NCBI GenBank assembly: GCA_000827205.1 | Contig: KN832554.1 | Coordinates: 3,679,815 to 3,743,814, forward strand | Source: Plicaturopsis crispa FD-325 SS-3 | Lineage: Eukaryota; Basidiomycota; Agaricomycetes; Amylocorticiales; Amylocorticiaceae | DNA: 64,000 bases | Direction of reading: 5' to 3' | Shown: positions 2,383 through 57,686 of the stretch, one piece after another | Layout: the number at the start of each line of letters is the position of its first letter | Position numbering within the stretch: position 1 is the stretch's first letter | Position numbers and translations under genes: made by a program | The notes under the pieces: generated by a model | What the model saw: only the letters and a program-made list of their open reading frames with translations | What the model was told of the DNA's origin: nothing | Database searches by the model: none

Positions 2383-5300
2383 CTAGGTCCCGAACGATGG
2401 TACATGCGAAGCAAATTTGCTCCTGGCACGGATCTCAGGTCCCCAACGAAGAAGCTACGGGAAATTGCAGGGTTAGCCAACGGCCGAGAGCACCAGGGAC
2501 ACGCAGTGAGACACCGACCGACTGACCACAAACGGTATGGTGATCATCAGAGACGCGATGCAACCAAACAATGTGCTCGACCACTTGAAAGTGAGGCGTG
2601 TGTACATCGTGGTCGTGAAGAGCGGGAATGTGGTACCGGCGATATTCCCTGCGAAGCGGTGTTTGTGATCTTTCGTATGTAGGATCTGGCTGCATTCGAG
2701 ACTCACGGAATAAGCTCTGTCCAGCAAGAGCGGAAGATGCGTACGGGCCATAACTGAAAAAAATAACTTGAACAATGAGGACGAATACAATGCAACATCA
2801 CCCACCAGTCAGCGAGGTACGTGGACACCGCTAGGTATATGATATATATTGACCAAGAGAACAGCTGAGTGCGAGGTTAGTGTCTGTTTCCGGATTAGCG
2901 AAGTCGCGCACTCACAACTACACCGACGGCCATGCCAACCCAGCTGACATCCTCAAAGGCTGTCCAAGCGTAAATGAACTGACTGAGCGCGAACATGATA
3001 CCTGCAGCGCAAGCAGAGTACAAGCGAGCTTCCTGGCCCTTCGTTCGAACCTTTCGTCTATACCCCAGCAAAATGAGCCTTCCACAAGCAGCAGATAAGA
3101 TGGTGTGCGCTCACTGGTATAATCGTTCTTGGTAAATATTTGAAACAAAGCCTAGCAGCGACCCAATCCTATCAGCCGGGCCGAAAGTGAGCATGGACGT
3201 GCATTTCTTTTTCATTGCTGTGCATACGTTATGGTAATAAACACCGATCCCACTTGGCCTTGATTGAAGCCATGCAGTTGTCTGAATGCTGGAGATATTG
3301 ACCTAGTACGAACTTGTCAGCGCTTGTTTTTTTTGGCATGAGGGTATCCTGAGAATCACTCGATGAAAGTATAGAGGATTCCCCATGCGAATCCGAACCA
3401 AAGCTACAGAATAATGCGTGAGCCCGCGGTGATCTAATCGCAAAGATACGGAAACTTACGCTGAATGCAATGACCACAGCCCTTGCTGTGAGATTTTTAC
3501 AAATACTCCAGCTAGATGTCGGGTGGATTGATGCAAAGGAACGCGATCAGGGCCGGAGCCCCTATTCGCTTCGGGAACGCTCCGCGCGGCAGCCTTCGGA
3601 CCTCGAAAATTTTTCAAACTCCCTTCCCAAAACAGCGCAACAGCCCCTATATCTCTCTCGGACATTGCGCCTGCCCTCGGGCCTTTCCTCGGGCTGCTCG
3701 GGCATCCATGTGCGGGTTATTAGCCCCTATAAACATTTCGACCTTGCGCGCGCTCCTCGGGCTGGCCGCGGAAATACCTTTGCGGCTACATTAGCCCCTA
3801 AACATCTTCAATTTTTTTTTTCGCGCTCGCTCGGGCATGCCTCGGGCATCCCCCGGACGTTGTATAGACTCAGTCCCTGTATGCGCGTGCATGGCCGTAC
3901 TGCATGAATATTTTCTTCATTTTCTTCGATTTATTTTCGATTTTTTTGTTTCACTTGTTATGCCTTGGTCTTAGGTGGGGTGGGGTATGTGAAGCAAAAA
4001 ATATATATTGATATTAAAGAAAGTACTATAACGAATACGCGACGGCGAAGGCGACAGCGCCGACGCCGTCGGCATATAGTGTGGGCCGGGTGAGCACAAC
4101 GACGACGCGAGCGGGGGATACCGCCGTGCCGCCGCCCTCGCGCTCCCGCTCGTGGTGCCGTGCTGTGCTCTTCCCTGCCGCGCTCCCCGTGGGTGCGCAC
4201 CCCGCGCCTGCCGCGCTCCCCGTTGTGCACACCCCGCGCCTGCCGCCCTCGTCACCAACCGCCGCCCTGCCCTCGCACTGCTTCTTGTCGTCGCCCGTGG
4301 TCGTTGTCCGCCGAGCGCGGCGGTGGCATTCCCAGAGCGGGTGCGCGGTGCGCTGGCACAGGCGCTGGCGCGCCGGGCGGATTTCCGCGCTGTGTGATGC
4401 GGAGGCGGCGTGCGGGGTTTGGTGCGCCAGCGCCCGGTCAACGCGGCCGGTTCGCACTGGCCTCGACGCGCCGCGGAATGCGAGGCGCTGGCGCGTCGTG
4501 GAGGCGCCGCGGTAGCGCGAGCGTGTAGGTGTGCGCTGAGGGGGGATGGGGGTTTTGTGGGGCCACTGCACTGTCGTGGGGCGTGCCGCCATGGCGCGCG
4601 CTGGCGCCGCGTAGACGGGGAACGAGGGGCCTGGGGGTGGGTTTGGGTACCGCGGGCGACGGCGTTCGTGCCGTTGGTGCGCGCTCGGGTTGACGTGGGG
4701 CGGCGTGGGGTTGTGGTCGTGGTAGAGGGTGGCGAGGGCGGCGGTGATGTGGCCTACAAAAAGCGGCGTTAGCTTTAAAACAAACGGTTGAAACGAAAAA
4801 GAGAACTTACTATAGAAAGAAGAAGAACAAGGGACACCCCCTGCATAAATGCAGGGGGTGGGATGGCGTCGTTGCGTGGAACGGCGCTGGCAGCGTTGAC
4901 GACGACGACGAGAGTCAAAACGAACAGCGACGACGCGTTGTTTTCGTTTTCAAACTCCGCCGGATTTCGCCGCGCTGGCGGTTTCCAGCGCCGTTTTCGA
5001 TGGCCACGGCCTCAAACGTGATCCTTTGCGCTCGAGAAAAATTGGAGGGCTTCGTGTATGTCTAGAGCCTATCCTAAAAAAGTTTCAAATTTTTTGAGAC
5101 CTCCAAAGCGAGCCAATTTAAGAAATGACATGGGATTATCATCTCCCAGCCACTTTGACACGGGTTTCTTGCATTTTGAGACATACCCTCGCGTTTTCAA
5201 GTCCCCAAAAAATTATATTCGTGTTCACAGGGTTAAAAAACACCCAGAATGATTTTACTGAGAAGTATGAGTGAGTGTGCCCACTCCTGTACCAGAAAAG

Positions 5301-8300
5301 ACGTCGGAAACAGCAGATCTGAGCATTCCGAGCCTTTCGGAATGCTCGATTCCAGTGTTCCATACGCCGTTTTGTGCTCCAGGAGTGGACACATCGGCGG
5401 GGGACTTTTCATAAGCTCAGGGAGTGTTGAGTAGTCCTCCCTGAGCATGAATATATTTTTTTTGCATTAAAATATCGCGAGGGAGCGATGAAGGAGACGA
5501 TTTCGCGTAGGAATTCATGTTGCGATAAGTTGCGACAATCTCGCACACCTTTTGTAGTCTCGCTGCATTTTTAGTGAACAAAAAAAATTCATACTTTGAA
5601 GGAACAATATATACACATAGACGAGTCCATTTACCACTTTACAGCATTTTTTCACCGCTGCTGACGCTGCAGAACGTCGTGCACGACGTGCTCGAGGCTG
5701 GCGCCACCGCGCGCGCACGGACCTGCGGAGTCTGAATTCGACCCCAATTCGGGAATTGGTTCGTTTTTTTTCTTCCCTCTTCCTCCCACCCTCGTCGTCC
5801 CAAACTCGCGTCGTCGCCGTCGTCGTCAACGACGACGGCCAGGCTGTAGCTCCCGGTAACGGGTGAGTCTTTTTTTCTCTCTTTTACTCCTTTTCTCCCC
5901 CGCCGCCGCCTATCGTATGATAGGCCCACCCACCCGGGCTAGCAGAAAATGGGCGGCGGCGGCCCTTTTTTTTTTGCTCTGCACCTGACTGACCACCAGG
6001 TTCGGCGCCAGGGAACGCCTGCGCGCTTCACCAGCCCCTTGACCCCACACCCCACCCACCTCAGTCAACAAACCCGCAACCAGCGCGACTACCAAGCGCG
6101 TCCGCTGCCAGCCACGCACAGCCAGCGCGCACTCGCGTCCCGCGCACTGGCGTCCCCGTCTCCGCGCTGGCCACCACCTCCGCCTCTGCCTCCACCGCCG
6201 CCCTCCACACTACCCTCTACCCCCCCCCCCCCGCCGTGCGCTGTACGACGCCCCGCAGCGCGACGACGCCCGGCGGCGCGACGACGCCCCGTGGTGCGAA
6301 GACGGCCGGTGCACGCCGCCCAGCACCATCGCCGTCTCGTCTGGCAGCGCGACACGAGGGCAGGGCCAGCACACCAGCGCGGAGGAGGCCGCCAGCGTGC
6401 GCCAGCTTGACGACGGGGCCCCCACCTCGGCGCTCATGCAGCCCGACCCGCGGCTCTACCGCGTGCACCAGCCCCGTCACACCGCCATGCCGTGCGGCGT
6501 GGGCACCCACACCCCCGCCGTCTCGCGCTGAGCGACAGACGAGCCCGCCAGCGCGAGCACCCGCCAGTGCGAGCACCCGCCAGCGCGGTGCCGTCGCGCG
6601 GCGTCAGCCCACCGTGTCGCCCGACCGCTGGCCGCTCTGTTCCACGGCAGCAGCGGCTGTTGCCGTAGTGCGGAGCTCGACACCGGCGGCGCTCATGTGC
6701 GCGCGAGCGCATCGCGCTGTGTCGCACAGCGAGCCAGCGGCAGCACGTGGAACGTACCGCATGCCCTCGCGGTGGTATTCATCCCGCCGCCGCCGCACTC
6801 GAGTCCGAGCGCGCTCGGGTGCTCCCCCCGTCTCCCCAACCGTGACCCAACCGGGTACCACTCCCGGTCTCCGTGGTCACAACCGGGGAGTACGGCCATA
6901 AGGGTGCACCCGCGCGCGCGATCCCCGCATCTACTGCGCAGTGCGCGGTAGATGCGGGATTTTTTTTTGGGTCCCTATTCGTGTTGTAGAGGGGTGCATG
7001 GCACCCCAGTAGAATAATAAAATTTTTTCACCGTTTTTTCCGAGCGGGAGCGTGCGCCTGCGTGAGCGCGGCCCTAGATAGATTTTGACCAAAAATGGAA
7101 CCATGTGAGCCTCGAGGCACGACGACGACGCGCCAAAGGCATGCCGAAGTCGCGCAAGGCATCCGAGGCCAGCAGTAAGCTTTGTAAGACATATATTGGA
7201 GCTCCGAAAGGCTGGCAGGAGGTGCCGAGAGTGGCCGGTAGCCGAAATTGTGGCTAGCAGGGCATCGCAATCCTTTGCATCAATCCCACCGACATCTAGC
7301 TAGAGTATTTGTAAAACACCCACTGCATCAGGTGATGACCACGGGCTCGGTGAAGAGGAGATCTGCAAAGCAAGTAAGATACAAAATCAGATGAAGACCA
7401 CAGCCGGACTACTCACAGACTGGCCGCGAGCACGATATCCAAACCCTCGTCCACAGTGACACATGCTCTACTTCCGCATGCGAATGATATGCCTCGTTAC
7501 CTGTCTCCTTACGAAGCTCACGAGCGACGCGAGTGAGCAAGACCAAGCTGCGGGTTTCCTGCATCGTGAATGGCATCATAATAAGGTATGCACCAATGAG
7601 ACTGCTCGTGCATTTCGTTCAGCATGGGGGTGTCACGACACTGGAGAGAGTGAGCATGCATACATGAGCTGTATCCATTGTATCCAGCGCCACTGGAGAT
7701 GGGGGTTCATCTCGATCCAGCCGGCGACGAGGGGACCTAAACCTTGACCGCCTATGCCCGCGACAGACATGAGAGCCATTGGTAGTCCACGCCTGGGCAA
7801 GGGGATATCAGAGGACAAATTTTAAATTTGAAGAACCAACGCACTGCTCAGGGCTCCAGATATCGCTGATTGTCCCTGGGACTAACATAGGGCCGGCTGA
7901 AGAGGCTGCTCCGGCGATGAACCGATACACAATAATCGACTGAATATTTGGTGCACTATGCAGGCCATTTTAGTACAGCGAGAAACATCGATGACAAAGA
8001 CGTACAGGGCTATGGCGAGGTTGGTGAGCAGAAAGAGGAATGTCGCGGCGAGATAAATAGGCCTTCGGCCAAAGTCTTCGCTTAGAGGAGCTGTGACGAG
8101 TGGAATGATACCACCTCCCAGAGCGTACATGCTCAGACCGAGGGTGGCGTCAATATTACTGGAGTTGAGATCGTGCATCATGGACGGGTAGCCCATCGAG
8201 AATGCCGATGTAACTGACGCTGTAAGATGGCGTTGTTTATATTGAAACATGGAATGGAATTGATATTGCTCACACGCAAAAGCGGTCAGGACGCAACCAG

Positions 8301-8541
8301 TGGTAGTGATCACCCATTTTCGCGCATACGAGAAATTGGCTGGATTCCGGGGATCGCTGCTCTCCCATTCGACCTACCACATTGGTTAGCGAGTGAACAC
8401 AAAATTTTGTGGACCACTTACATATATGATGGAGTCCTTTTCGTCCACCACAGACGGTGTTTTTGCTGTGCTCTCTACCAGGTCGGCGGCGGAAGGGGGT
8501 GACCCCAATGTCGCATTAAATTGAGTGGAATGTAGGGCCAT
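2383..8541 (-). CDS. MFS transporter (DHA1 drug/polyamine type), split by a transposon
   Basis: Major facilitator that would export drugs or polyamines by proton antiport at the plasma membrane; the substrate is inferred from family only. Reading the minus strand from the ATG at 8541, I can join 15 exons through 14 short introns into about 498 residues with no internal stop. Seen features: a hydrophilic N-terminus ending in a DPRNPANFS stretch, the motif-A-like LSEDFGRRP at about residues 117-125, GIGGQGLGPLVAGW then WRWIQWIQ, the loop ETRSLVLLTR, FTEPVVIAF at about 285-293, GQEARLYSAC, NIAGTTFPLFTTTMY, and a C-terminal GPEIRARSKFA. Length and motif order are normal for the family. The exon encoding FTEPVVIAFS is split between 7362-7342 and 3476-3460 by a 3.86-kb element; reading across one target copy restores that motif exactly. 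As sequenced the allele is probably non-functional. The P450 gene lies divergently 1.7 kb upstream. Confidence 0.85.
3470..3476. repeat. target-site duplication, left, copy 1
   Basis: ATGACCA immediately before the element end; the identical heptamer follows the right end at 7335-7341. It is part of the transporter exon. Confidence 0.85.
3477..3540 (+). repeat. left terminal inverted repeat, copy 1
   Basis: The core from 3495 (TTTTACAAATACTC, then AGCTAGATGTCGG and TTGATGCAAAGGA) matches the complement of 7271-7316 with few differences. The subterminal TTGATGCAAAGGAACRCG is also present at both ends of copy 2, so it may be the binding site of the mobilising enzyme. Confidence 0.8.
4805..4810 (-). 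promoter_or_regulatory. candidate antisense 5' splice site
   Basis: On the minus strand this reads TA-GTAAGT, a perfect fungal donor, 30 bp from hairpin A. The same TA-GTAAGT stands 29 bp from hairpin A in copy 2 (57144-57149), although the surrounding bases differ. This may mean that a minus-strand transcript of the element is spliced; there is no transcript evidence here. Confidence 0.3.
4835..4860. other. hairpin A, copy 1
   Basis: Perfect 12-bp stem (CACCCCCTGCAT with ATGCAGGGGGTG) and an AA loop. The equivalent site in copy 2 is also a hairpin, with an almost entirely different stem sequence, so the fold rather than the sequence is kept. Confidence 0.8.
5321..5347. other. hairpin B, copy 1
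   Basis: An 11-bp perfect stem (GAGCATTCCGA with TCGGAATGCTC) and a 5-nt loop. It starts 461 bp after the end of hairpin A. Copy 2 has the same arm and loop lengths, with two compensatory pair changes and one mismatch. Confidence 0.8.
5415..5446. other. hairpin C, copy 1
   Basis: A perfect 10-bp stem (GCTCAGGGAG with CTCCCTGAGC) around a 12-nt loop, 68 bp after hairpin B. I do not see a clear equivalent in copy 2. Confidence 0.65.
6921..6960 (+). other. hairpin D plus T tract, copy 1
   Basis: An 18-bp stem with one bulged C and one G-T pair, loop AGT, followed directly by nine T residues (6960-6968). A strong stem plus a T run is how RNA polymerase III transcripts often end; whether this is one is inference. 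Confidence 0.6.
7268..7334 (-). repeat. right terminal inverted repeat, copy 1
   Basis: Complement of the left end over about 46 core bases, with an outer part reading CACCTGATGCAGTGGG on the minus strand. The right end of copy 2 reads CACCTGATGGTGTGGG, so the outermost bases are conserved within each end more than between ends. Confidence 0.8.
7335..7341. repeat. target-site duplication, right, copy 1
   Basis: ATGACCA identical to 3470-3476. Reading the transporter exon across just one copy restores the codons for FTEPVVIAFS. Confidence 0.85.
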
Positions 8542-10263
8542 GGGGTCGACGGTCAGAGGTTCTGAGCAGAGGCAAGCTAATGCAGGTATCTTTCTGGTGG
8601 ATTTGTAAGTAACTTGTACTGCAGCGTTTGCCCGACGTGGTCAGTCACGCAATGAAGCTTGAGGCGCCCAACACAAAGCCTAACAGGGAGACACCGTCAA
8701 CACAAACATACTCAGAGCGCTTGAAGAGATTCTTGTACCTTACGGAACTTTCGGCATTCTTTTTGTCCAGATCGTCGGACATGCACAGAGAGGTCGAGCC
8801 ACTAGATACTCACCGGTTTACTATAGAAGTTGATGCATAACTGTTCGGCGCGGGGTTATAACTAACCCGTCGTCCATCAATCTTCCCTTGAGTCAGTCCT
8901 GCTCTCCGTTGTGAGCGGTACGATTCGCGTAGCGCACGGAGGCATAGTACCCTTGACGTTCGAAACACCACCACGGAGGAGGAGCCGGCAAGTCCTCAGT
9001 GGACGCCGTTCTAGACGTGCCGTTTCATAATAAAGCTTGTTTCTACCGAGCACAGGTTGGTAGAGACGCTGCGGTTCATGTGTCCTCAGAGTTTTAGAGC
9101 AAGCACCAAATGGTAAAAGTGTGCGAACTTGGTACGAACTTGGTTGGCGGCCCGGGAGGTCGCGGCGCCACAAAGAATGAAAGGAACATGGTGGCCACGT
9201 GTGCCAACCCAAAATTGACATGTTTCTTTAGTTTCAGTTCATACCGGCCTGTCCCTGGCCTGTCGTCGAAAGCGCTCATATCCTTGCACTTGTGCTAGCA
9301 TTCCAACTCAGCTGAAAATGCACCGTTCACAATCAAGAATGTCTGACTCTTCAAGATGCTAGCGACGTCGCTGGGACAAGCTTGAACCGTTCCGGCAATG
9401 GGTTTGACTTTCTGAGTGCAATGTACATTGTACAAGCTACATGATGTACTCCGCTTCCTGACACAACAGGTCACTTATGATACCTTCGCCCTTGTCTCCA
9501 TGATTACCGCTCCACAGACCAATCGGCGAGTTAAGATGTGCTGGGTATTGAAGCCGGTACACTCGTCCAACGCGGACCACCCTCATCTGACGATGCGCAC
9601 TCCGAAGCAGCCGCGCCCCTCTCCTCATCGCCGCTCTATTGCACGCCATTGCATTCCGTGGAGTTTCCGAGTCCTTGACTTGCCGTACTATCTTGATCAA
9701 CAGCACCAGCCGCGCCCTGCCGAATTCAAGGTGAGTTTACCTAGACATGTCAGGTCCTCCGGCTAGTGCATCCAGCAATGACTCACCGGACACTAACAAG
9801 CGCAAAAATGCAGGTAGACCATATGCTTTTGTGCTACTGCAAGCGACTTAGTCGATCTCAAAAGTAAGTCGTTATCTAAAAGAGCGTACTAGGACAACTG
9901 TGCTCAGCGCATCACTCCACATAGCAAAACGTTCGTTCATGATATCCTCCTCCTGACAGGCATGACTGCGCACTTGGGATTTGCTCGCAGGGCATCGGAC
10001 CGATTGAGGAGCAGGCTAGTATGGCTCGACCCTCATTCACCCCTCTTTTGGCTCGCCACAGAAATGAATGAATTAGAACGGTAACGAAATCTAGAGTCTG
10101 CAGCTCCATGGTACATTCCTTAGATCCCGGATGGGTCGAGTTTCAGTTGCTCGAGTCGTGTCCCGCACCGTCAAATCTATAGCCGGAAAGACCCTACTTG
10201 CGAGGATGAGATGACGCTGAGTGTCTTTCACTTGCTATAAAGTCTCTCGAAAGCTGAGTAGAA
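8542..10263. other. shared upstream region of transporter and P450
   Basis: A 1.7-kb stretch between divergent start codons. No open frame here shows a domain or a convincing splice structure. I see no repeat or RNA gene. Confidence 0.5.
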
Positions 10264-12391
10264 ATGATACCAAGCATCATGTCGACTCTCTCAAACGTCC
10301 TGAGTGACCTTCTTCCCCCAACTGCAGCCTCATCATGGCTTGCTATCTTTATCACTGCTGCACTACTTACACACATCGCGCCGTATCTGTATGACGCGCA
10401 TGGCATACGGACGTTGCCCGGACCTTTCATTGCCAAATTTTCCGACTTTTGGCTAGGCTGGGCGGCTGGTACCCGTCACCGTTCCGAAATTATTCACGAG
10501 GCGCATCATACATATGGTGAGTTCTCCGACAGACTCTCGCCCACGCCGAGCTCATCTTTATCCGCAGGAACGTTTGTCCGCATAGCCCCCAACCACACCT
10601 CAATAGCTAGTCCGGAGGCCTTGCAAACTGTCTACGCACACGGTTAGTCCTTTTATTATTGCCTTCGCCGTACATCCTGATCGAAAACCCCGTGTACGCA
10701 GGCAACGGCGTCCTGAAGACCAACTTCTACGACGCCTTTGTCAGTGCGTCCCTCGGCCGGGCCCTATTCAACATACGGGGACGCTCAGACCACTCGCGTA
10801 AGCGCAAAATGGCCGCGCACGCGTTTTCGTCCAAGAGCGTCGCTGGTTTCGAGCCGTACATACGAGTGCACGTAGAAAAATTCGCAGCATGGTGGGACAG
10901 CATGTGTGCGATGGCTGCGAAAGGTATGTCGGGCACCGACGGCAAAGGGGGGTGGACTGGGAGAGATGGGCGTCTCTGGCTGGACTGTCTGCCTTGTAAG
11001 CTCGTTTCGTTTGCTTGTTTCTCGTCGCGGTCATTAATTTTTTCTCACCTGCAGGGCTTAACTACGTGTAGGTTTTTGAAACGTAATTTGTTCCGTACAT
11101 TGGATCTAACTGATTTTTCGTAACTATAGCGCGATGTATGTTATCGGTGAGCTGATTTGTTACACTTTGAGAACAATTCGCAGCCTGAGCTTTACCAGGC
11201 GATCTCATCACGGGCGCACCGTTCGGTATGCTTGATGCGGCGTCGGACTCAGCCCCGATAGCGGTCTCACACATGGATGCCATGAACGCATACGGCGAAA
11301 AAATGTGTGAAACCGATACGACTTCGGCTAGCGAAATATTCATCAACCGTGGCGAAGTTGCGTCGACACTGGGCGTCCTGCCGCCTTGGACGCGGCCACT
11401 TCTTCGCAAACTGCCCTGGTTCAACGGTGGAAAATTGGCGATACAAAATTTGTCCGGATTGTCCGTGGCCGCCGTTGCGAGGCGGCTCGCGGACACCCAG
11501 ACGGACAGACCGGATTTGCTAACCAGACTTCAGGAGGGACGGGACGAGGAGGGCAATCCGTTGACCAGAGCGGAATTGACGTCCGAGGCGTCTTCGCAAC
11601 TCACACCTGGATGTGAGACTATCTCGAAGTACGTTGAACTCACTTTCATCCAGCACATCGCCGCCAGGATTCGTTTAATGACATTGGTGTTCCACAGCAC
11701 GGCGTGTGCCACCATCTACTATCTGGCTCGGGACCGTCGCATCCAGATCAAACTTCAAAAAGAACTTGACGCCGCCCTGTCCACGAGCGAGGACGTGGTC
11801 CCAGCGTTCGAGCTAATCAAGCGTCTCCCGTATCTCGAAGCGGTCATCCAAGAGACCTTCCGCGTCCACTCCACGGCATCTCTCGGTCTTCCGCGCGTCA
11901 TACCTGAGGGCGGGCTCGTCGTACTTGGGAAAGCCTTCCCGGAGGGTGCCATCGTGAGCGTGCCGACCTATACGATCCATCGCGACAAAGAAGTGTGGGG
12001 CGAAGATGCGGACGAGTTTCGACCTGAGCGGTGGTTCGAACGCGACCGCGAGGCCATGTCCAAGGCTTACAATCCATTTTCGACTGGACCCAGGTCCGTC
12101 ACAGTAGTGCGTTCACCTGTACATCTTGCTCACCGTGAGGATCTTTTACAGGGCATGCCTGGGCCGCAACCTCGCCGTCATGGAGCTACAGATTCTCCTC
12201 GCGGTCATTTTTTGGCGGTTCGATATGGTTCTCGAGGCCCCTGAAATGCCGGTTAGTTGTCCTCCTCCACTCTTGCTGCAATTTACAATTCTGCTCACGC
12301 GTTTTGTATTACCCACTAGCTAAAAACGCGGGAGGGGTTCTTGAGGAAGCCTTATGGCTGCATGGTGGGCATCCAGCGTAGAAACGCATGA
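10264..12391 (+). CDS. cytochrome P450, CYP53-like (benzoate 4-hydroxylase type)
   Basis: A membrane-anchored haem monooxygenase of the ER. CYP53 enzymes para-hydroxylate benzoate and related aromatics. The model of about 550 residues joins exons through short introns with matching phase. Visible: an N-terminal anchor (about residues 24-42), LPGP hinge (51-54), the CYP53-like stretch FVRIAPNHTSIA and NFYDAFVS, FNIRGRSDHSRKRK (about 132-145), the helix-K ExxR as ETFR (about 413-416), FRPERW (about 468-473) and the haem loop FSTGPRACLGR, with the haem cysteine at about 495. One intron splits the haem loop between GPR and ACLG. The I-helix oxygen-activation site reads PGCETI rather than the usual AGxDTT, which is unusual. 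The start could also be the ATG at 10279. Family assignment is from motif memory. Confidence 0.85.
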
Positions 12392-32572: not shown

Positions 32573-32653
32573 GATATATACAAACGATATAGATCCTATC
32601 GCGCGTGCGTTGCGCGTAAATACAATGCATGCGGTCCCATTTCATGGCTACGT

Positions 32654-37328: not shown

Positions 37329-37598
37329 ATACTGTACAATACCGACCAAGTCTTCGGCCATTGTGACCTGTGACCACGGCCGAAGAGATGGACATCTCTT
37401 CGGGAGCGAAATTTTGCTGTGACAAGTCCGAAATCTCGAGAAAAATTGCTATTTCGAGCCTATTTTAGAGCAAATTTGTGACATTAGGAAAATTTGTACT
37501 CTTCGTATGCCAATGTGACCGTGACATTCCGAAAATCTCTTCACTTCGAAAGTCGCTGTGACCCGTGACCCGAAGACTTGGTCGGAATAGTACAGTAT
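37329..37598. mobile_element. MITE with TA target duplication (mariner-like)
   Basis: The outer bases form inverted repeats: CTGTACAATACCGACCAAGT at the left, CTGTACTATTCCGACCAAGT on the complement of the right end, continuing through TCTTCGG and a GTGAC-rich segment. TA flanks each side (37330-37331 and 37596-37597), giving an element of about 264 bp with no coding capacity. TA duplication and short non-coding body fit a Tc1/mariner-derived MITE. It lies about 130 bp upstream of the DUF2433-RRM start codon. Confidence 0.75.
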
Positions 37599-41759: not shown

Positions 41760-42030
41760 ATTATCGTTCTTCTCTGTTGTTCCTGTGCTCATGCTTTCCA
41801 TTTGTTCATGTCGCTTTGTTCACGGGATGTATCTATTTTACACTTAGGCTATGCACGATCATCTACACTATCTTGCGTATGAAAGGAAGAGGTGGTATGT
41901 GAGTGATATGTCAACTGGTAGGTATAAAAAAATCAATTAGTTGGATAATATGCCGCCAGTGGCAGCGGGGTATATGTAGAAGACGGAGGCTGGAAGTCTG
42001 CACCAAACAGTCCCAATGTCAGGCTAGCAT

Positions 42031-45706: not shown

Positions 45707-46069
45707 TCAGGAGAAACGGCAGTTACACTTGGTCTTCAGAGCTGTCTATGTCTTAGTAACCTGTTACGGCGAAGACTGGAAAATTGAGCTTGAGGATGAT
45801 AGTTGAGGATATGGTCGGTGGTGGTGGTGACTCTGCGCAAGCTCGCGCGCAAGGCAGGTGCAGCTTGCATGCAGCGTCCAAAGGGGGACTAACTGGGCTA
45901 CGCCTTCATAAGGAAATTTTAGACTATAGAATGGTGTCTCAGACTCTCAGGGTCTGAATTCTGACTGCGCGCAATATCTAGCATAACAGTAGGGGTAGTG
46001 GGATATAGTACAATGGGCATCGTAGTACTAGTTGAGCGCATACAAATCGAAGGGAAGGCAAATGCGGCG
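45707..46069. other. intergenic spacer
   Basis: 363 bp, nothing supported. Confidence 0.5.
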
Positions 46070-48231: not shown

Positions 48232-48800
48232 GCAGGAGACGCGATAGATAATGGCTTGAGAAAAGACAGGATTTGGAGGAATCTCAGAGCCCAGAACAAG
48301 TGGATGAACCGGCAGAGACAAGATGCCTGAGGCGTGAAAAAATAAAGCGGGGAAGGTTGAATTGTGGAAGGGGGGCCAACGAGCACAGGGAGCGCAACGT
48401 CGGCTGCACAGCCGACTTCCGATAGAAGGTGACTGTCTGTGACTGTGCAGCGCTCATCCATAGTGGGACGGCTGCAGTGCATAGACAAATATTTTGCAAG
48501 TCGTCAATGGCGACTCGCAAAATGGGCATAGCAAGGCGTCGGTATCATCCGTACAAGTAAACCTCGCATGAACATGTAGGAACGGTCGCCAATAACTTCA
48601 ACATCATTAGCGCTGGGCTTGCACGGCGACCAGGGATCTTACTCACCCTTGACACTGAGATACATGCAGTGACAATGCTCCTATGGCCATCGTTCAGTAA
48701 GCTTCCGTGTTGCTGATGAGTATGGTACATACCTAGGTCGAGAGCCTCACCTTACCTAACGCGATGACTTGGATCCTTCAGCCCCAGATCTCAATTCCGT
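48232..48800. other. intergenic, no supported gene
   Basis: 569 bp between two minus-strand genes; nothing supported. The 3' flank of the five-intron gene lies at its right edge. Confidence 0.45.
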
Positions 48801-49310
48801 TCAAAGGTCCCGCAATCTCTGGCGAAGCTTCGATACAAGGTCATCCTCTTCCGGAGTAGGAGGCGGCTATGGATGACGGATGAACAACTGGCACTTTAGT
48901 GAGCCGTGAAAGCCCACCATTTGATCGAGCAGGTACTGCGAGACAAATGTGAACCCGATGTAGCGTAGGACGGTTAACGGAGTGTTAGAACTGACTCACT
49001 TCGGCCTCATCTATCGTCTATCATCATCTGCTCAGGTATAGTATCTTTCACCTATAAGTAGCAGCAAAGAACGCGCACAAGAATTATGGGGCCTCTGGGA
49101 AATTAAGGTCATTCGTGAATATTGGACAACGCTATAAACAGCTGCATTTCATCAATACTGACCTGTTCATCCTTGGAAGCTGCTATTTCTGCTTTGTTTT
49201 GGAAGCGACGCGAGTTGGGGGTAAGAGGTTGGTTAGAGGTGTGGACCGGTGTGGATCCCGAGGAAGCGTGGGACACCTAGTACTTGCATCTCATCGACAT
49301 CTCCCGACAT
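48801..49310 (-). CDS. very small five-intron gene, function unknown
   Basis: The ATG at 49310 begins MSGDVDEMQVL. Joining six exons through five GT-AG introns (donors GTGTCC, GTCAGT, GTGAAA, GTGAGT, GTGGGC; acceptors GCAG, CCCAG, GATAG, CGCAG, ATAG) keeps phase at every junction and yields about 66 aa. It includes RPHNSCARSLLLLIDEAEYL and a conserved-looking end PPPTPEEDDLVSKLRQRLRD. The phase agreement and clean acidic/basic helix argue for a real gene, but it was assembled by eye. The start codon is 76 bp from the divergent start of the isomerase gene. Confidence 0.45.
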
Positions 49311-49386
49311 CTCTTGCCCTTGTCGATGATCTAAAGTCCACTGTATTTTTCTTTTCATCCGCTGTACATTCATTGTATCTCTGAAA
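49311..49386. promoter_or_regulatory. short divergent promoter
   Basis: Only 76 bp separate the start codons of the five-intron gene and the isomerase, so leaders or promoters must overlap if both genes are real. Confidence 0.35.
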
Positions 49387-50826
49387 ATGCCTCCCGTATT
49401 CAGGATCCTACCAACTGTGCAACAATATGACTGGGGTAAGATCGGTAGCGCATCCCAAGTCGCAGAGCTCGCGGTCGCATCCAAGATACCTGGCTTTGAA
49501 CTCGACGAAACGGCCCCGTATGCTGAGGTACGATTGTATCAGACCATGGCACGACCGCTCAGCAACGCTAACTTCAATGAAGCTCTGGATGGGGACCCAT
49601 CCAAAGTCGCCATCCCGCGTATTCGAAACGCAGGAAATCCTGTCGGAGTACCTTGCTGCACACCCTGAGCTCATCGGTGACCGCGCGATACAGCGCTTCG
49701 ACGCGTCTAACGGCAACCTTCCTTTCTTGTTCAAAGTCTTATCGATCGAAAAGGCGTTGAGCATTCAAACTCATCCCGACAAGGCTACCGCTACAAAACT
49801 GCATGCAGAGCAGCCTTCAATCTACAAGGGTACGTACGCCCACTATACTTGGCTCGAGCTCGTTTCTTGAGCCTTGTGCGTAGATCCCAACCACAAGCCT
49901 GAGATGGCGCTCGCCTTAACGCCGTTTGCTGGACTGTGTGGTTTCTTGCCGCTCTCTCAAATTTCCGCCAACTTGTTGTCCACTCCCGAATTATCTGCTC
50001 TCATTCCATCTACTATTGCCGATCGCTTCCACTCTATTGCCTCCTCGTCCACGCCCACGGCACCCGCAGAGAAGGCCGCTCTTAAAGACATATTCTCGGC
50101 CCTCATGACCGCCAACGAATCTTTGATCGCAACAGAACTGGATAAGCTTGTCCAGAGATATACGGCCCAAGGCGCTCTCGAAGACGATCGAAGCGTCGCA
50201 AGGCTTGTCCTACGCTTGAATGAGCAATTTCCTGGCGATATCGGCATTTTCTGTGCCTTCATGTTGAACTTCGTACATCTCCAGCCCGGTGAAGCTATCT
50301 TTCTCGGTGCTGGGGAGCCCCACGCATACATTTCCGGCGGTGAGTCTCGTGTTTTGATAGTGGGTTGCGCTGTCCTCATACCGGATCAATAGACATTATG
50401 GAATGTATGGCAAATTCCGACAACGTAATCCGCGCCGGACTCACTCCCAAGTTGCGCGACATCCCAAATCTTGTCTCCGGCCTCACCTATACAGCAGCAC
50501 CACCGACCAATCACATAATCGAACCCACAAATTTCTCGCGCAGTTCTTCAGCAGCAACAATGTTATATAAACCACCAGTGCCGGAGTTCTCCGTCCTTCG
50601 AGTGCAGGTAAACCCGGGGTGTACTGAGAAACATGCACCTTTGGATGGGCCAAGCATCCTGATTCTGACTTCAGGTCATGGGTCTATAGTATGGAATGGT
50701 GGAGAGGGTTCCCTCAGTGTGTCAAAAGGGTATGTTTTATTTGTTGGAGCAGGCGTTGACCTTGAAGTGAAAGAGGAAGACCTAGAAAATCTTGTCTTTT
50801 ATCGTGCATTTGCACATGAACTGTAG
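49387..50826 (+). CDS. PMI40: mannose-6-phosphate isomerase (type I)
   Basis: A zinc enzyme interconverting fructose-6-phosphate and mannose-6-phosphate, the entry to GDP-mannose for glycosylation and cell wall. The start ATG at 49387 (MPPVFRILPTVQQYDWGKIG). Four introns; about 430 aa. Exon 2 has ELWMGTHPKSPS and the active-site PFLFKVLSIEKALSIQTHPD with zinc ligands Gln and His. Exon 3 has DPNHKPEMALALTPF with the ligand Glu, and LQPGEAIFLGAGEPHAYISG with the ligand His. The last exon carries DIMECMANSDNVIRAGLTPK and the C-terminal cupin half. Full length with all metal ligands. Confidence 0.95.
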
Positions 50827-51269
50827 ATTACAATTGTTATTCCTTTTCTTGAATGCTACCAGATGTTAAACACTTGAAGATCTCTCTTTCACTCAGTGAC
50901 GGTGCATTGGTTTTGATTTGAAACTCCACCGGCTTTCACCACAGGGAGGGCCCAACACGGATCACTGTCACCCGGGTCGTCCGTGGGTGATTATCCACAG
51001 ATTGGGTGTGGGCTGGGTATCGGTGGATTATGGATACAACATGTTGGATTTTTTGTGTGCATCGCGTCCTCGGAAAGGGCGTGTTTGCGAGTTTCGGATC
51101 GGACTTGGGATGTTGACCAAATAGTAGTCAATAGTACGTGCGTCCACGTAGCACAGCGATCCTCTTGTCTTTCTTTTGCTCTTGTTCAATACACAATCCC
51201 GGTCACATTCTTTTGCCCTCGCTGTTACCAGTGCCTCATCTCTAGCCTATTTCTGTCAGCATCTGCAAA
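50827..51269. other. start of gene-poor region, no gene
   Basis: After the isomerase stop no gene is supported. Around 50950-51060 GTGGGTGATTATCCACAG and GTGGATTATGGAT recur, suggesting decayed tandem sequence. Confidence 0.45.
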
Positions 51270-51405
51270 AAAATTAGGTTGCTGAGAGTGTCTGACAACT
51301 CTCTCAGCGCTCTCAGGCTCTCCGCAACCTAACACGATCTGAGAGGTGCTGACAGACGCTCTCAGATCTCTCAGCTGCCTCGTGCACTCTCAAAACATCG
51401 GAACG
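51270..51405. repeat. CTCTCAG-rich inverted repeat cluster
   Basis: About ten occurrences of CTCTCAG, CTGAGAG or GAGAGTG in 130 bp. The part from 51276 to about 51330 opens AGGTTGC and closes GCAACCT, with complementary CTCTC/GAGAG arms between. Non-coding; possibly an element end. Confidence 0.5.
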
Positions 51406-51470
51406 CATCTGCATCTAATCAGTAGACTCGAGATAACCTCAATCACTATCTTATCCTGACTTGAGCGCGT

Positions 51471-51770
51471 ACATCAGGAAAATCATTTTGTCTATATAGA
51501 CAAATTCAAGATAAGATCATCTATAAGAGCCACTTTGAGCAATTTTGTTGCTATAGGGGCTATAAGAGCTACTATAGTGACTAGAGGAAAAGGCGCCCAG
51601 AAACTAATATTAGAGTAAGTTACTATAATAGCTCCCATAGCTTTCATAGTTTGCATAGATGTCAAATGAAAGTATAGACCCTGTGGCACTCCAAAATGCA
51701 TATATTTGAGCTCTACTATACAAATTTGCCAATGACACTCAACACCCAATCTACGTGCATGTACGGGGTG
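51471..51770 (+). repeat. dispersed CATCAGGA repeat, divergent copy A
   Basis: Starts ACATCAGGAAAATCATTTTG then CTATATAGA, related to the better-preserved copies at 54236 and 62021. The body is AT-rich and full of CTATAAGAGCT/ATAGCT words. Confidence 0.4.
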
Positions 51771-51959
51771 GCTGTAGCTCATGCACAGCCCATTGTTAGC
51801 AGTAAACATGTGTAGGCGTGGGTGTGGGCGGTTCGGTGCTGGGACCGTAGTGCGCCGTCACCGGTTTGTGCGAGCGCGCCACCTCTGGCGCTGCACCGGC
51901 GTGGTCAGGTGTGGGTGTCGGTCCGTTTGTTGCTGGGACCATAGCGCGCCGTCGCCTCT

Positions 51960-52090
51960 GGTGCTGCACTGTCGAAAACGCGCACGGGCCTTGTCGAAAA
52001 TGCACACGGCGCCCGTGCACATTGTTGAAAACGTGGGGGGCTTGGGTGTCGTCGAGAATGCGAGGGCGTGGGTGTTGTCGAAAATGTGAG
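51960..52090. repeat. 27-bp minisatellite, block 1
   Basis: Degenerate units of the form GTGGGCGTTGTCGAAAACGCGCA. The same unit forms block 2 at 52330-52575; about 240 bp of unrelated sequence lies between. Confidence 0.5.
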
Positions 52091-52329
52091 GATGTGGATG
52101 TAGAAATCATTGACTGATTGTTGCGACCGTCTCGTATCACACATCTCCCCACTTTCATATGCTCGATTACTACTTATATCCCTTTTCTTGTGCCTTATCT
52201 TATCGTTCACATGGTCGCCTATTTCGTACTTATACAGCACCGTTCCGACTTGTACGCTAGCGAGTTTGACCCCAACCCGCCCGCAATACATCTTTGCTTC
52301 CCGTTTCTGACTCACTGCGCGCCCGATTC

Positions 52330-52575
52330 CAACAGTGGAGGGCGTGGGCGCTATCAAAAACGCGCAGGGCGTGGGCGCTATCAAAAACGCGCAGGGCGCG
52401 GGCATTGTCGAAGACGCGCATGGCGCGGTGGTCGTCGAGAGCACGCAGGGCGGGGGTGCCATCGAGAATACGCAAGGGGGCGGGGGTGCTGTCGAGATTG
52501 CGCAAGGCGGGGGCGTTGTCGAGAGCGCGCAAGGGTGCGGGCGTTGTCGAGAACGCACAGGGCGGGCCGTCGCTG
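52330..52575. repeat. 27-bp minisatellite, block 2
   Basis: About nine head-to-tail units; the first two (GCGTGGGCGCTATCAAAAAC and following) are almost identical, later ones drift. Because 27 is a multiple of three, several frames stay open; the minus strand reads as nine-residue repeats. I treat this as non-coding. Confidence 0.7.
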
Positions 52576-52999
52576 TTTTGCATATGTGCGGGCACCGCCG
52601 TCTTGCGTGTGCGCGTCGCCGTTTTGCGCGTTGGCGTCGGTGGTGCGTTGCTGGGACGTCGTCTCCGGTTTGCGAGCCGCCATTTTGCGCGTCGGCATGG
52701 GTGGTATGGTGCTGGGACCGTGGCGCCGTTGCCGCCCGCTTCTGGCGCTGCGCTGGCGTTTTGCGCGTCGGCGTGGGTGGTTCGGTGGTGCTGCCGTTCT
52801 GCATGTGCGCGCCGTTGCCGTGTTGCGTGTGGGTTTTGCGCGTGCCGTTGCAGTTTTGCGTTGGTGGTTTGGTGCTGGGACCGAGGCGTTGTCGCCGTCG
52901 TTTTGCGCGTGCGCGCGGTCGCAGTTTTGCGGTTCGTTGTTGGGGCAATGATGCGCCGTTGCCGTTTGGCGCGTGCGAGCTGTGTTAGTCATGCTGGGA

Positions 53000-54235
53000 G
53001 ATGAAACAATGAAAGTCAATGTCACTCACCTATTCCAAAACCCCTTCACAAACGCCCGCGACTCTAAGTACATCCCCAAGTCCGTGGACGCGGACGGTTG
53101 TGGAAGGCTGAGCGAGGAGGGGAGATAAGATGCAAGAATATGTGGACTTGGAGAAATCTGACAAGAGTCAACGCGCGGCAAATGAGTGTGGGAATGATTG
53201 CAGGACTCTGCAATCTCCAATGCTTGCCACGTCAATTTTCTCGTTGTTCTTGCTCTCCACTCTCACCTCCCCTCCACGAACGCCTGGCTGCAGCTGGGAT
53301 ATAGACTTCGCTGCCCTACTTTGACGTGCTGCTGCAGGACAGTATACCGGCTGCACTTTGGCTGCACAGATGCCCAGGCCGCACACCTGATGCGCGACCG
53401 TTTGTGCGTACCCTCTCCTCCTTCTCATATACACGCTTACAGGTGCTCAAGCGAATTCGGAACACGGCCGTCACCTGTGTGGAGGCCACTGCATGGACCT
53501 CGCCCGTCAACGACACCATGCGCAAGCCGCTGTGCCGCTCTGCAACCAGCGCAAGCTTCAGCCCTGGTGTCGCTCCGTAAGACAGGCTCAAGGCGGGAAG
53601 CCCAAAATTTCAATTTACAGCGCGGTAAGCCCCCTCTACACCCTCCTGGCCTCCGTCTCTTACACTGCCATGGACTTGTTCACACCATCTGCTGTGTGCC
53701 TCGCGTACAGCAGCACCGCGAACATGTCCGGCCCTGGTGCACGCGGTCCTTCACACCCATTCATACCTGCACGCTCTCACCCCACGCTGTCTTGTGTGCT
53801 TGCTAGTGCAAACCCACATCCCATTGTATGTGTCTGCATGTTAGACTGAGTTTTTTCTTGTTCTGGCATGTGCTTATGACTGACATAAGAATGATGTTTT
53901 TGCAGGGTATCCATACCATAGGCCATTGCATCTGCATATTGGGTAAGTCTTATATCTCCCCTAATGTGGTACTATGCCTGATTCTGTTATATTCTAGATT
54001 GAAGGACTTTTCATAGAGCTGGACTGACAAATAGTTAATTTCTGGCAGTAGCATGTACTTTGTAGCTAGAAGCTAGATTAGCACTTGTATCTAGTTAGTG
54101 AAATACATTGATTTAGACGTCTTTTCATTTGTGCTTTAAGAGTCTATAAGAGCTCCTATGCTATTATCATCACTTATTCTGTGTCTGTGTCTGTGCCCCT
54201 CTGCTGCTCTCCCAGTGTCCGATCTCAACACTTGC
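53000..54235. other. repeat-derived region without a supported gene
   Basis: Open frames are shadows of each other and lack domains. A segment at about 53135-53240 resembles 61095-61230 (shared GTGGGAAYGA, TGCAGR and GCCACGTCA words in order), so this stretch and the 61-kb region descend from a common unit. Confidence 0.4.
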
Positions 54236-54435
54236 ATCATCAGGACAACCCCTTTGGCTATATAGAAGTGTAAAATTTGTAATAGCACATATAGCTGGGA
54301 TGGTACTCTTATAGCACCACATAGCACATATAGCTACTGTGATTTTTTTGTGAATGTTATTGTAAATATCTAAGATTTACTTATGTCTATATGAGTGGTC
54401 TAATAGCTCTTATAGCTGGGAGGGTATAACAATTA
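54236..54435 (+). repeat. dispersed CATCAGGA repeat, copy B
   Basis: Opens CATCAGGACAACCCCTTTGG, then CTATATAGA, AAAATTTGTAATAGCACATA and, near the end, CTAATAGCTCTTATAGCTGG. Clearly homologous to 62021-62215. Non-coding and AT-rich inside GC-rich surroundings. Confidence 0.7.
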
Positions 54436-54585
54436 AACACACATTCCGTAGTTCTGTGCAGCTTTGCTGGTCATTGTGTTGGCTCATTCAAATTCACCAC
54501 AAATGCATTGAAGCTTAAATGGATAACAGCAGATTGGAGAGAGATAGTAAACAACCGCAGCATAATACAGGGGTGGACATAGGTC

Positions 54586-54990
54586 TCCCCCGACAGAAGT
54601 GCGTCGCGCGCGATGAATACGAACGCGCCCGGGAACAGAAGGGCAACGTTCGAGAGGGGTAGTAGTCCTGCCGAATGCGCACACCCCCAAGGGCCTCCGA
54701 CGAAAAAAAATTAAAATCACCATGAAATCACGCGAAAATCGCGGAAATCAGAGATGAGGGCGCCGCGCGACGAGCTCGGTGGTCCAGCTATTCAAACAGC
54801 CGGCATTCGTCACGGGGATGATCGCCCCATCATGCTGGATGGAGTCGCAAGGCCGCCTGTCGATTGTGCGGCCGCGGCGGCGAAATCGGGGGAGGTGGGG
54901 AAAGTCTCCCCCGAAAGAAGAGGGCCGCGCGCCTGAAGGGAGAAAGGCAGCGGTAGGGAGGGGTGATAACCTCCTTCCGAACGTGCACGT
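54586..54990. repeat. tandem ~317-bp duplication (two diverged units)
   Basis: GTCTCCCCCGAMAGAAG begins at about 54586 and again at about 54903; each is followed by CGCGCGC, then GAGGGGT, and a closing CCGAAYGYGCAC. The units are diverged. No coding signal. Confidence 0.5.
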
Positions 54991-55299
54991 TGAAAGGGGA
55001 GTGGGAGCACGGCCGTGACAGCGGGACCAACATTCGCAAAAACAACAAAAATTTCGAGAAAGCGCGCGGCGCGGCGCAAGCACACGCGCGTGACAATAAC
55101 GAAGCATACTCACCAGTAGGCAGGACGATCCCGCACACGCTGCAAGTGTTTGTAGAGGCCGCGTGAGCCTGGGGAGGGCGCGAGAGTCGGCGAGGTGAAT
55201 CAGTGTCGCGCGTCAGCAAACCATCACGAACACGAACGACGAGCGCGTGCGCACCTGTATCACACTCCCCTGCCCATCCTACACCTTTGGTGGTGTGTC

Positions 55300-55627
55300 G
55301 TCTTGCGTGCGTGCGCGAGACGGCGGGCCCGTGACTCTAGTGTGCTGAGGGTAGAGGGAGGCGGCGCCGGGGGGTGGAAAGCGACGATGAATCGAGACGC
55401 CGGCCGGCGTCTCGATTCGTCGTCGTCGTATTGCTGCACGGGCTCACAGTGCACGCGAGACGGCGGGCCAGTCGTAGTGTGCTGAGCGTGGAGGAAGGCG
55501 GCGCCGGTGGGTAGAGTGACGACGACGAGACGCCGGCTGGCGTCTCGATTCGTCATCGTCGTATTTTGCGCTCCTGCGCGGCGGGAGGGAAGGCGGTGGC
55601 GGCGTGTCCTCTCGCATGCGCGCGCAA
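55300..55627 (+). repeat. palindromic satellite, block 1
   Basis: Two and a half monomers, palindrome centres near 55404 and 55535. The first contains a perfect 30-bp palindrome at 55389-55418 (arms GAATCGAGACGCCGG), extended by GACGA/TCGTC arms after one mismatch. The array is interrupted at 55628 by element copy 2. Confidence 0.85.
55621..55627. repeat. target-site duplication, left, copy 2
   Basis: CGCGCAA, identical to 59957-59963. The satellite equivalent at about 62541 has a single GCGTGCAA/GCGCGCAA-like site. Confidence 0.85.
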
Positions 55628-57143
55628 CAGCCATAGATGTGAAGAAATTGTAATAGATCCCCTATTGTGTGGGGCGACTTGATGCAAAGGAACACGGTTA
55701 CTAAAAACACAGCCACAAGACCGCTTTTGGGCTGCCCGGCTCGTCCGGCATCCACTGGCAGCCTTCGGAGCTCAAAATTTTTGCCTTTGTACTACTGGAC
55801 CGTGCTCTCGGTCAATTCCACGTTCCCGTGTTCCCGCGCGTTCGTCGTCGGTTGTCGTCGCCGGGCCTCGAGGCTCGCGATGCCCGATTTGGAATGCTTC
55901 TACAAACCTTCGTCTCTGCGCGATTTCCGAACGCCTGCCTTGGGGCACTCGAAATGTTCTTATAATTCCAGATTTTAGTATATTTACATAGTGCACTTGC
56001 AAGGGCCGTGGTCTCTGACTTAGGTTTGTGGATCCAGAACAAATAAAAAATTCGATTAAGAAAGTGTAAATTTTACAAGTACATAGAGGAGACAGGATGG
56101 CGATGGCGAGATAGCGTACGCGGAGGAGTGCGTGTTCAATTTGCCGTGCGGGGTGGGTGCACCGGGGGAGAGCTCATGCGGCCGCCGTGGGCGTATGCGC
56201 GGTGGGCGTCGGCGCCGACGGTGCAGGCGTGGCCGCGACCACAACGAAGACGTGCGGGGGCGTGGGCGCTGGCGTTGATCGGGTTGGCATGGGGGTGCAG
56301 CCGTGGCCGTGGCCGCGACCAAGACGAGTGCGGGCGTGGGCGCTGGCGTTGAGCGGGTGGGCGTGGGCGCTGACAACGCGCAGTCGGCGTTGAGCGGGTG
56401 GACGTGGACGTTGCTGGCGCGTACGGGGGTGGGCATGGGCGGCGATGCGCGGGCAACGTCAGTTGGCGTGGGCGTTGCCGGTGTGCGGGTGGACTTAGCG
56501 CTACCAACGCGCTGGTGGGCATGGGCGCTGCTGGCGCGCGTACGAGCCTGGGCATGGCGAAAACGCGCGTGTGCAAGGGCGCCAGCAATGCGCGGCGCTG
56601 ACGATCCGTGGTGGGCGTGCGCGCCGATGACGCGTAAGCGGCATGGCCGCTGCCGTTGCGTGGGTGGGCAAGGGCGCTGCCGATGCGGACGGCACCACTG
56701 ACGGCGCAGGCGCGGCCGTTGCAGCAGCCGAGACACGCATGGGCGTGGGCGCAGCCGTTGCGCGGGTGGGTGTTGACAATGCCGTTGAGCGGGCAGGCGC
56801 GGGTGCTAATGATGTGCGAGCGCGGGCGCTGACGATGCGCGTGCATTGGCGCTGCGCGTGACGATGTGGGCCATGGTGCTGAGCGACGGGGTGTGGGTAG
56901 ATGGGGACGGGTGCGGGGTGTCGTCTTGTGGGCTACACGGCGGCTGGGCTTCCTTCTCCTGCTCCTCCTGCTCCCACTCCCGTTCGTGCTATCCCTCCCC
57001 ACATTCCCCCTCCTTTCCAGGATCTTCCTCCGCTTGTATCGCGTGCGTATTGGCGTATACGCCGACGAGGAAACGATGTGGAGAGTTTCTGGTAAATGAA
57101 GCGTCGTTAGCTCAAAAAGCGACGGTGAAAAAAGAGAAAATCG

Positions 57144-57149
57144 ACTTAC
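57144..57149 (-). promoter_or_regulatory. candidate antisense 5' splice site, copy 2
   Basis: Minus-strand TA-GTAAGT, 29 bp from hairpin A, matching the position in copy 1. Confidence 0.3.
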
Positions 57150-57172
57150 TAGTGATTATTAGGACGGAAAGG

Positions 57173-57199
57173 CAGCCTCCGCAAAAGTGCGGAGGGCTG
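57173..57199. other. hairpin A, copy 2
   Basis: An 11-bp stem (CAGCCTCCGCA with TGCGGAGG-G-CTG, one bulged G) around a short A-rich loop. Same position as hairpin A of copy 1 but a different stem sequence. Confidence 0.75.
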
Positions 57200-57659
57200 G
57201 CTGTCGTCGCAGCGTGTAGCGACGCGGGCAACGAGGAGGAGGAGGAGGAGAAACGAAAAATCAACCGTTTCCCCAATTAGGAAACCCCGAAATCCGCTCC
57301 GCGCGCTGTGGCGCACCCTCTCGGAGCCATGCAATCCATTCCTGCAGCATTGGTGGGGATATTTCTCACTATATAAAATCATAATAACGTTTCTGTATGA
57401 TATAGGATGCCGTGTACTAGATTCTGTATTTTTGTGAGCCCACACTGTGAGTGAATACGCGAAAGAGTTCAGATTTCGTGGCTTTCGGGCCGTTTTGGCG
57501 GCGGATGGGTGTCCCTATTCACCCCCTCGCTACTTTACGGTCCATAAAAAATACATTCGTGTTGGAGGAGCATGTAAGTACATACTATCAATTTACGGAG
57601 AGCAGAGATGTGATGTGCTCACCTCGGGAGCCTCAAAACGTTGTTCGAGCGTGCAGATC

Positions 57660-57686
57660 GAGCATTTCGGACATTCCGAAACGCTC
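57660..57686. other. hairpin B, copy 2
   Basis: Arms GAGCATTTCGG and CCGAAACGCTC around ACATT, with one A-C mismatch. Two pairs differ from copy 1 by compensatory change (C-G to T-A, A-T to G-C). It begins exactly 461 bp after the end of hairpin A, as in copy 1. Confidence 0.8.

Follow-up and report, generated by a model that had tools for sequence, protein, structure and literature searches.

Putative non-autonomous KDZ-type elements of Plicaturopsis crispa with a candidate RNA hairpin at a conserved distance from a predicted splice donor

Non-autonomous DNA transposons are usually considered to require just their ends. Among the closest described elements, the Kyakuja transposons of Laccaria have 7-bp target site duplications (TSDs), CA..TG ends and, in both families, no terminal inverted repeats (TIRs) (PMC12730594). 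On the side of RNA, the exon junction complex (EJC) is deposited 20–24 nt upstream of exon junctions (PMC4509934), and in Cryptococcus, inefficiently spliced transposon RNAs enter RNA interference (RNAi) (PMC5851062). We analyzed a 64,000-nt window of the Plicaturopsis crispa FD-325 SS-3 genome (contig KN832554.1, here C1, positions 3679815–3743814; 33.2 Mb in 49 contigs), which contains two related non-coding elements of probable KDZ type, E1 (3477–7334, 3,858 bp) and E2 (55628–59956, 4,329 bp), neither assigned to a strand. Divergent transcription of this family appears to yield two spliced RNAs, in each of which a hairpin keeps a constant distance to the first splice donor. Because the hairpin has been kept at this distance from the splice site even though its letters have changed, we suggest that the RNA itself matters.

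Hairpins, splice signals and the core

The left-hand hairpin, A, lies on the minus strand at 4835–4860 in E1 (11 bp, 4-nt loop) and at 57173–57199 in E2 (11 bp with one bulged G). An earlier note on this DNA had found that A folds in both copies, which we confirmed, and that its stems are almost entirely different, which is not the case: the left arms, CACCCCCTGCA in E1 and CAGCCTCCGCA in E2, differ at 3 of 11 letters. On the same strand, the hairpin is followed by a spacer (4811–4834 in E1, the last 24 nt of predicted exon 1; 57150–57172 in E2, 23 nt) and then by the predicted first intron of a leftward transcript, which spans 57 nt in E1 (4754–4810; GTAAGT, CTAAC, TAG) and 61 nt in E2 (57089–57149; GTAAGT, CTAAC, CAG).

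We compared this arrangement among copies from loci extracted from the same genome (numbered with the prefix L). In 40 of the 44 copies, the outward strand has a GTRAG or GTACG donor 22–27 nt beyond hairpin A; the remaining four lie within 19 bases of the edge of the extracted sequence and were beyond the test. The spacer measured 24 nt in 16 copies, 23, 25 and 26 nt in 7 each, 27 nt in 2 and 22 nt in 1 (E2 was scored automatically with a shortened stem; its bulged stem gives the 23-nt spacer), and its letters vary freely. Measured from the centre of the loop, the donor was 37 nt away in 24/40 copies and 35–39 nt away in 40/40. A hairpin score of at least 8 was reached at 35 of the 40 donors (scan window 21–28 nt). 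The intron signals GTRAG/CTRAY/YAG were present in 25 of the 29 copies with enough flank, with introns of 55–62 nt and one of 49 nt; three of the other four have CTAAA by eye, and L012b is without branch point and acceptor.

A second hairpin precedes the donor on the right-hand side, on the plus strand. In E1 it has 10 bp unlike those of A (5816–5839) and the rightward donor at 5863 follows it by 23 nt; in E2 it has an 8-bp core with partly A-like letters (58162–58189) and stands 23 nt before the donor at 58213. The same division was seen in the family: the right-hand stems of E1-type elements do not resemble A in their letters, and those of E2-type elements are partly A-like. A rightward donor with a hairpin score of at least 8 located 21–24 nt upstream was found in 10 of 14 elements. 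Moreover, eight extracted cores have hairpin A at both sides, in opposite orientation. For comparison, none of the 64 GTRAGT sites that the window contains beyond the elements reached score 7, a control that used this donor pattern where the element scans used shorter ones. In a second control at transposase loci, 9 distinct sites reached score 7 and 2 reached score 8 out of 523 looser donor-like sites, a total that includes double counts from overlapping stretches.

The distance from the end of A to the start of a second hairpin, B, is 461 bp in both E1 and E2, as previously noted, and 450–466 bp in 41 of 43 A/B pairs of the extracted loci. The half-core was 506 ± 5 bp long (standard deviation 5.3 among 42 half-cores, 41 of which fall within 496–512 bp), with a mean pairwise identity of 0.57 and a minimum of 0.42. 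Among nine elements, its length varied by 0.8%, compared with 6–7% for the arms that flank the core. The strong divergence of the surrounding sequence reported by the earlier note was also evident, as E1 and E2 are 46% identical over the compared core columns.

Hairpin B, for which no strand was assigned, forms in E1 (5321–5347) the apex of an imperfect palindrome of ~120 bp between two predicted promoters and in E2 (57660–57686) the apex of an imperfect palindrome at 57541–57804 (about 74–75%). Its previously described features, namely 11-bp arms and a 5-nt loop in both copies, two exchanged pairs (C-G to T-A and A-T to G-C) and one A·C mismatch in the second copy, were all reproduced. Across copies, the length of the surrounding palindrome ranges from about 120 to 357 bp; some of them have an inner stem of 34–37 bp that contains one to two mismatches. 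The inverted repeat of which B is the axis measures between 120 bp and ~1 kb, and the core looks like a divergent promoter.

The hairpins of E1 exceeded chance, with three of at least 10 perfect bp versus 0.04 expected from dinucleotide shuffles. E2 has no hairpin of at least 10 perfect bp, its stems carrying a bulge or a mismatch; the hairpin-A stretch nevertheless folded at z = –5.2 in E2 and z = –4.0 in E1. A covariation analysis of the kind proposed in the earlier note also gave a divided result. For hairpin B and its extension (35 copies), 107 cells had changed at both sides of a pair versus 43 in shuffles (0/500), 23 pairs had a double change versus 14.4 (0/500), and 49 pair types were observed versus 42.9 (8/500). 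However, this covariation needs no RNA, because B lies at the axis of the larger inverted repeat, and homogenisation or duplication of the two halves would account for it; we regard B as the midpoint of a putative divergent promoter, acting at the DNA level. For hairpin A, analyzed together with a small neighbour helix in 39 copies (5 of the 44 were dropped), 36 cells had changed at both sides versus 14.5 ± 3.0 in shuffles (0/500), a result that two stricter measures given below do not share. The clear pairs of A are one with C-G 26 times and U-A 8 times (4 unpaired) and one with U-A 32 times and C-G 6 times (none unpaired), and in the neighbour helix U-A occurs 16 times and C-G 10 times. Because hairpin A is part of a predicted exon and its distance to an intact intron is constant, it points to RNA, and it has probably been selected as RNA.

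We also considered strand bias as a proof of RNA and rejected it as too weak by itself. In nine helices of the predicted transcripts, two of which (F-p1 and F-p3) are alternative pairings of identical letters and all of which come from related copies, 68 outward G·U mismatches were counted versus 95 expected and 25 inward ones versus 59 expected, so that outward mismatches are depleted less.

Ends, copies and relation to KDZ transposons

Both elements start with CAGCC and end with CAGGTG, and each is flanked on both sides by an identical 7-bp TSD (ATGACCA for E1, CGCGCAA for E2). The TIRs are 64 nt long in E1 (3484–3547 and 7264–7327) and about 120 nt long in E2. In a related, empty copy of the repeat into which E2 has inserted, CGCGCAA occurs once (62433–62439). 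The family comprises dozens of non-coding DNA transposons of roughly 4 kb each. We paired all left and right termini located 2.5–6 kb apart in the extracted loci, whatever their flanks, and found a perfect 7-bp duplication in 9 of the 10 members with both ends (E1, E2, L009, L011, L014, L016, L019, L020 and L025) and CA..TG termini in all 10; the tenth, L017, has both ends and no target duplication. Two more pairings were without a matching duplication, one between L020 and another right end farther along and one in L021 with a chance-like right end. In the genome, the left-terminus pattern matched 32 times versus 0 in a reversed control (among these matches, one is a coding element described below, L047 runs into N and L048 is unconfirmed as a member), and the right termini of one subfamily matched 13 times versus 2 in the control. 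Hairpin-A regions were found in at least 40 places, which is a lower bound based on 40 scored candidates out of 58. Several copies lie ~3–8 kb from contig ends (C3:2453172, C6:1869422, C34:58551) and others are internal, a distribution that may point to a subtelomeric enrichment.

A search of the genome with a single profile, PF18758, yielded 43 KDZ domain matches, one of them below the cut-off. One match lies in the right half of an 11,681-bp element (C10:1239872–1251552; TSD CTATGAT). At its left end, this C10 element shares 88% identity over 197 bp with L026, which carries both hairpins A and B, and 94% identity over 193 bp with a further end in L018; the right end is matched by the family profile (E = 1.4e-17). 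The C10 element and L025, which has A, B and the duplication GCCGATG, close with the same GCTACAGCATGAGGTG. In addition, the tandem TTGCGAT motif of the family core is also present near the centre of the C10 element. Because the TSDs, the CA..TG termini and the ends are common to this KDZ-coding element, E1 and E2 are very probably non-autonomous KDZ elements; we call them Kyakuja-like only, because they have TIRs, unlike the Kyakuja elements of Laccaria. Their clade may be Kyakuja, Dileera or Zisupton.

A further E1-like left end (88%) was observed in L010 (C6:1837070) at 1571–2051, followed by unrelated sequence, with an open reading frame (ORF) matching DDE_1 at 5037–6107 and a KDZ domain ~8 kb from the left end. 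We rejected this locus as a transposase-carrying relative, since the interior behind the left end contains the DDE_1 ORF and no matching right end was seen there.

The family itself appears to be without recognisable protein genes, including a transposase. Coding arms were rejected: the period-3 chi-square exceeded 6 in 2 of 92 windows of 300 bp (8.0 and 14.0), which is below the 5% chance rate, where the 92 are those with values among 8 element pairs and include some misaligned or facing N. Indels of all lengths occur in the arms of these 8 pairs, and a Pfam scan of two E2 arm ORFs gave no match. In the outward direction, each of the four arms of the two elements consists of 41–45% C and 8–17% T. 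Close element pairs align along their whole length, and the arms of different subfamilies are nearly unalignable (E1 and L014: arms 49–61%, core 58–73%).

Candidate mechanism and rival explanations

The best explanation of the whole, to which we give moderate confidence, is that of non-autonomous KDZ elements with a divergent core and hairpin-bearing spliced RNAs. A KDZ transposase from larger elements would move E1 and E2, which would carry, in place of genes, a divergent promoter core with palindrome B as its axis. From each side of the core, a non-coding RNA whose arms are rich in C and poor in U would be transcribed outward and spliced. In it, hairpin A, or its right-hand counterpart, would form an RNA stem-loop at the end of exon 1, and ~24 nt would separate the foot of the stem from the 5΄ splice site of the following intron of ~57 nt. 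A stem foot 24 nt from the junction would abut the EJC site and the opening of the spliceosome's exon channel. The stem-loop could keep the EJC off the exon end, or it could promote splicing, and the non-coding transcript would thereby escape decay or spliceosome-coupled RNAi; a possible benefit is that the RNA would keep promoter and chromatin open for the transposase. The transposon features, the hairpins, the intron signals, the constant spacing and the covariation are observations. From sequence, we infer mobilisation by KDZ, transcription, splicing, the EJC step and the benefit to the element, and of these we offer the EJC step as a tentative suggestion. The stem of hairpin A is at the EJC loading position of the exon by prediction only, and the genome contains a match to the EJC core protein Mago nashi.

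Several observations weigh against this explanation. The stricter covariation measures for hairpin A were unexceptional, with 9 pairs showing a double change versus 6.7 in shuffles (reached in 46/500) and 22 pair types versus 22.2 (326/500). Its ten main pairs showed a modest strand bias (17 A/C to 8 G/T versus 29 to 19 in shuffles), and R1 showed almost none. The right-hand hairpins fold weakly (z = –1.8 in E1 and –2.1 in E2), and the right-hand arrangement fails in L017 and L025, has no donor in L012b and is weak in L020. The scan for hairpins near donors itself permitted 21–28 nt, and the donor patterns of the first control and of the element scans were unequal. As for the relation to KDZ, the C10 match consists of two stretches, the first of which has stop codons (introns or decay), and the C10 element has neither a match to hairpins A and B nor an outward hairpin-donor module at score 7. 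In L015 and L016, the centre is less alike (74–83%) than the left arm (87–93%); because of this difference, the copies are suggested to be mosaics. Finally, other readings fit the same hairpin position.

The first of these places the cause in DNA: the hairpins would be palindromes maintained at the level of DNA, whether as binding sites or as cruciforms, and their complementarity would be restored by template switching or by conversion between the arms. As an account of the whole this is possible, if doubtful, and it best fits hairpin B, which is the apex of the long palindrome described above; the promoter hairpin B΄ shows no outward bias (11/16). Four of the eight symmetric cores (L030, L032, L033 and L036) have halves that are 80–91% alike mutually and at most 73% alike to any other element, which would suit homogenisation or a recent inverted duplication; however, the halves of the other four (L029, L031, L034 and L035) are no more alike than halves of different elements. 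Moreover, the ~24-nt donor distance of A and of the right-hand hairpins is left unexplained. The selection on a folded RNA or DNA advocated in the earlier note is retained for hairpin A, where RNA is indicated, and not as a single cause for both A and B.

Alternatively, the hairpin together with a short, near-consensus intron might ensure early, efficient splicing and so shield the transcript from spliceosome-coupled RNAi, with no role for the EJC. The near uniformity of the introns in the 25 of 29 copies (GTRAG/CTRAY/YAG, 55–62 nt, one of 49 nt) and the feeding of inefficiently spliced transposon RNAs to RNAi in Cryptococcus (PMC5851062) are consistent with this view, which we regard as unlikely since a good intron would suffice and there would be no reason for a stem at 24 nt. 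An inherited relic, in which a common ancestral layout and a low indel rate would deprive the constant spacing of meaning, agrees with the homology of the A copies and the few gaps in the core alignment but is quite improbable, given a half-core that varies by 1% in length (5.3 of 506) at a mean identity of 0.57 and a minimum of 0.42, the 0.8% versus 6–7% variation of half-cores and arms in nine elements, and stems that change by double substitutions.

Returning to the explanation by hairpin-bearing spliced RNAs, a family that retains its promoter-like core and intact intron, with an exonic stem-loop whose distance stays constant amid drift, would imply that the RNA helps the element. In its strongest form, which we put forward with considerable doubt, these would be transposons without proteins that are selected for a structured spliced RNA, with a stem-loop at the EJC site in both transcripts, its right-hand version having unrelated letters in E1-type elements, and with a length-locked, largely sequence-free core. 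If true, the cargo of a transposon would be an RNA that manipulates splicing-coupled surveillance. The handling of EJC-linked decay or spliceosome-coupled RNAi by a transposon RNA would become testable, and some 40 natural hairpin variants are at hand for studying structure at the EJC position.

Other features and known systems

Further folds were predicted near the ends. Hairpin L1 (4040–4071, minus strand) lies near the left end of E1, and its consensus folds at –26.7 outward versus –23.6. The right end of E1 contains a structured module (6839–6958, plus strand) composed of a conserved ACCGTGACCCAACCGGG... fold (F), hairpin D (6924–6958) and a T run; these 120 nt fold at z = –4.7, with –54.0 for the outward strand versus –47.3. 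Within the module, 6839–6893 and its relatives (ACCGTGACCCAACCGGG...CTCCCGGTCTYCGTGGTCACAACYGGGAG) form the most conserved right-end stretch, which has two mutually exclusive pairings and may be a separate RNA domain. An Rfam search of the whole window gave 0 matches above the gathering score, and a permissive search of E1 gave one match far below its cut-off. Hairpin A was also considered as a microRNA precursor and rejected, since 11 bp is too short.

In the rest of the window, host ORFs match DUF2433, Ric8 and P450 (Pfam). Tandem repeats of about 136–151 bp with a palindromic CGAGACGCC..GGCGTCTCG core occupy 55309–55611, 59954–60854 and 62377–63852; the array is the insertion site of E2, and a right terminus in L020 also has a similar repeat beside it. 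A 110-nt direct repeat (54238–54347 and 62021–62130, 81%, ~7.8 kb apart) flanks E2 and part of the array, and its two copies are possibly the ends of another mobile element. A 29-nt inverted repeat (37329–37357 and 37570–37598, 93%, 212 nt between the arms) adjoins the DUF2433 gene. The GC-rich stretch 51803–52924 contains imperfect 27-nt and 46-nt direct repeats and long ORFs on both strands, one of which was tested and had no Pfam match.

We found no description of such elements in the open-licence literature searched. The term undescribed functional system, used in the earlier note, is too strong for the whole, as the family belongs to a known transposon superfamily, and the RNA layout may be what is undescribed. 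Kyakuja/KDZ elements of Agaricomycotina share the 7-bp TSD and the 5΄-CA..TG-3΄ ends, whereas, compared with Kyakuja of Laccaria, the E1/E2 family has no protein found, is ~4 kb long and has TIRs (PMC12730594). KDZ1–3 of Cryptococcus neoformans likewise belong to the KDZ superfamily and have TIRs but are coding, about 9–11 kb long and flanked by 4–8 bp TSDs (PMC12810828). Miniature inverted-repeat transposable elements and foldback elements are, like this family, non-autonomous and non-coding with inverted symmetry. The former are far shorter, and in the E1/E2 family the symmetry is central, with promoter-like sequence and intron signals. Foldback transposons, with very long, internally repeated TIRs, are ruled out by TIRs of 64 nt in E1 and about 120 nt in E2, the range in the family being only about 47–130 bp. 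With respect to RNA, the oskar SOLE resembles hairpin A in being a stem-loop tied to the EJC position; SOLE lies across the spliced junction of oskar mRNA and, together with the EJC, is required (PMC4509934), whereas hairpin A lies wholly inside predicted exon 1, just upstream of the EJC position.

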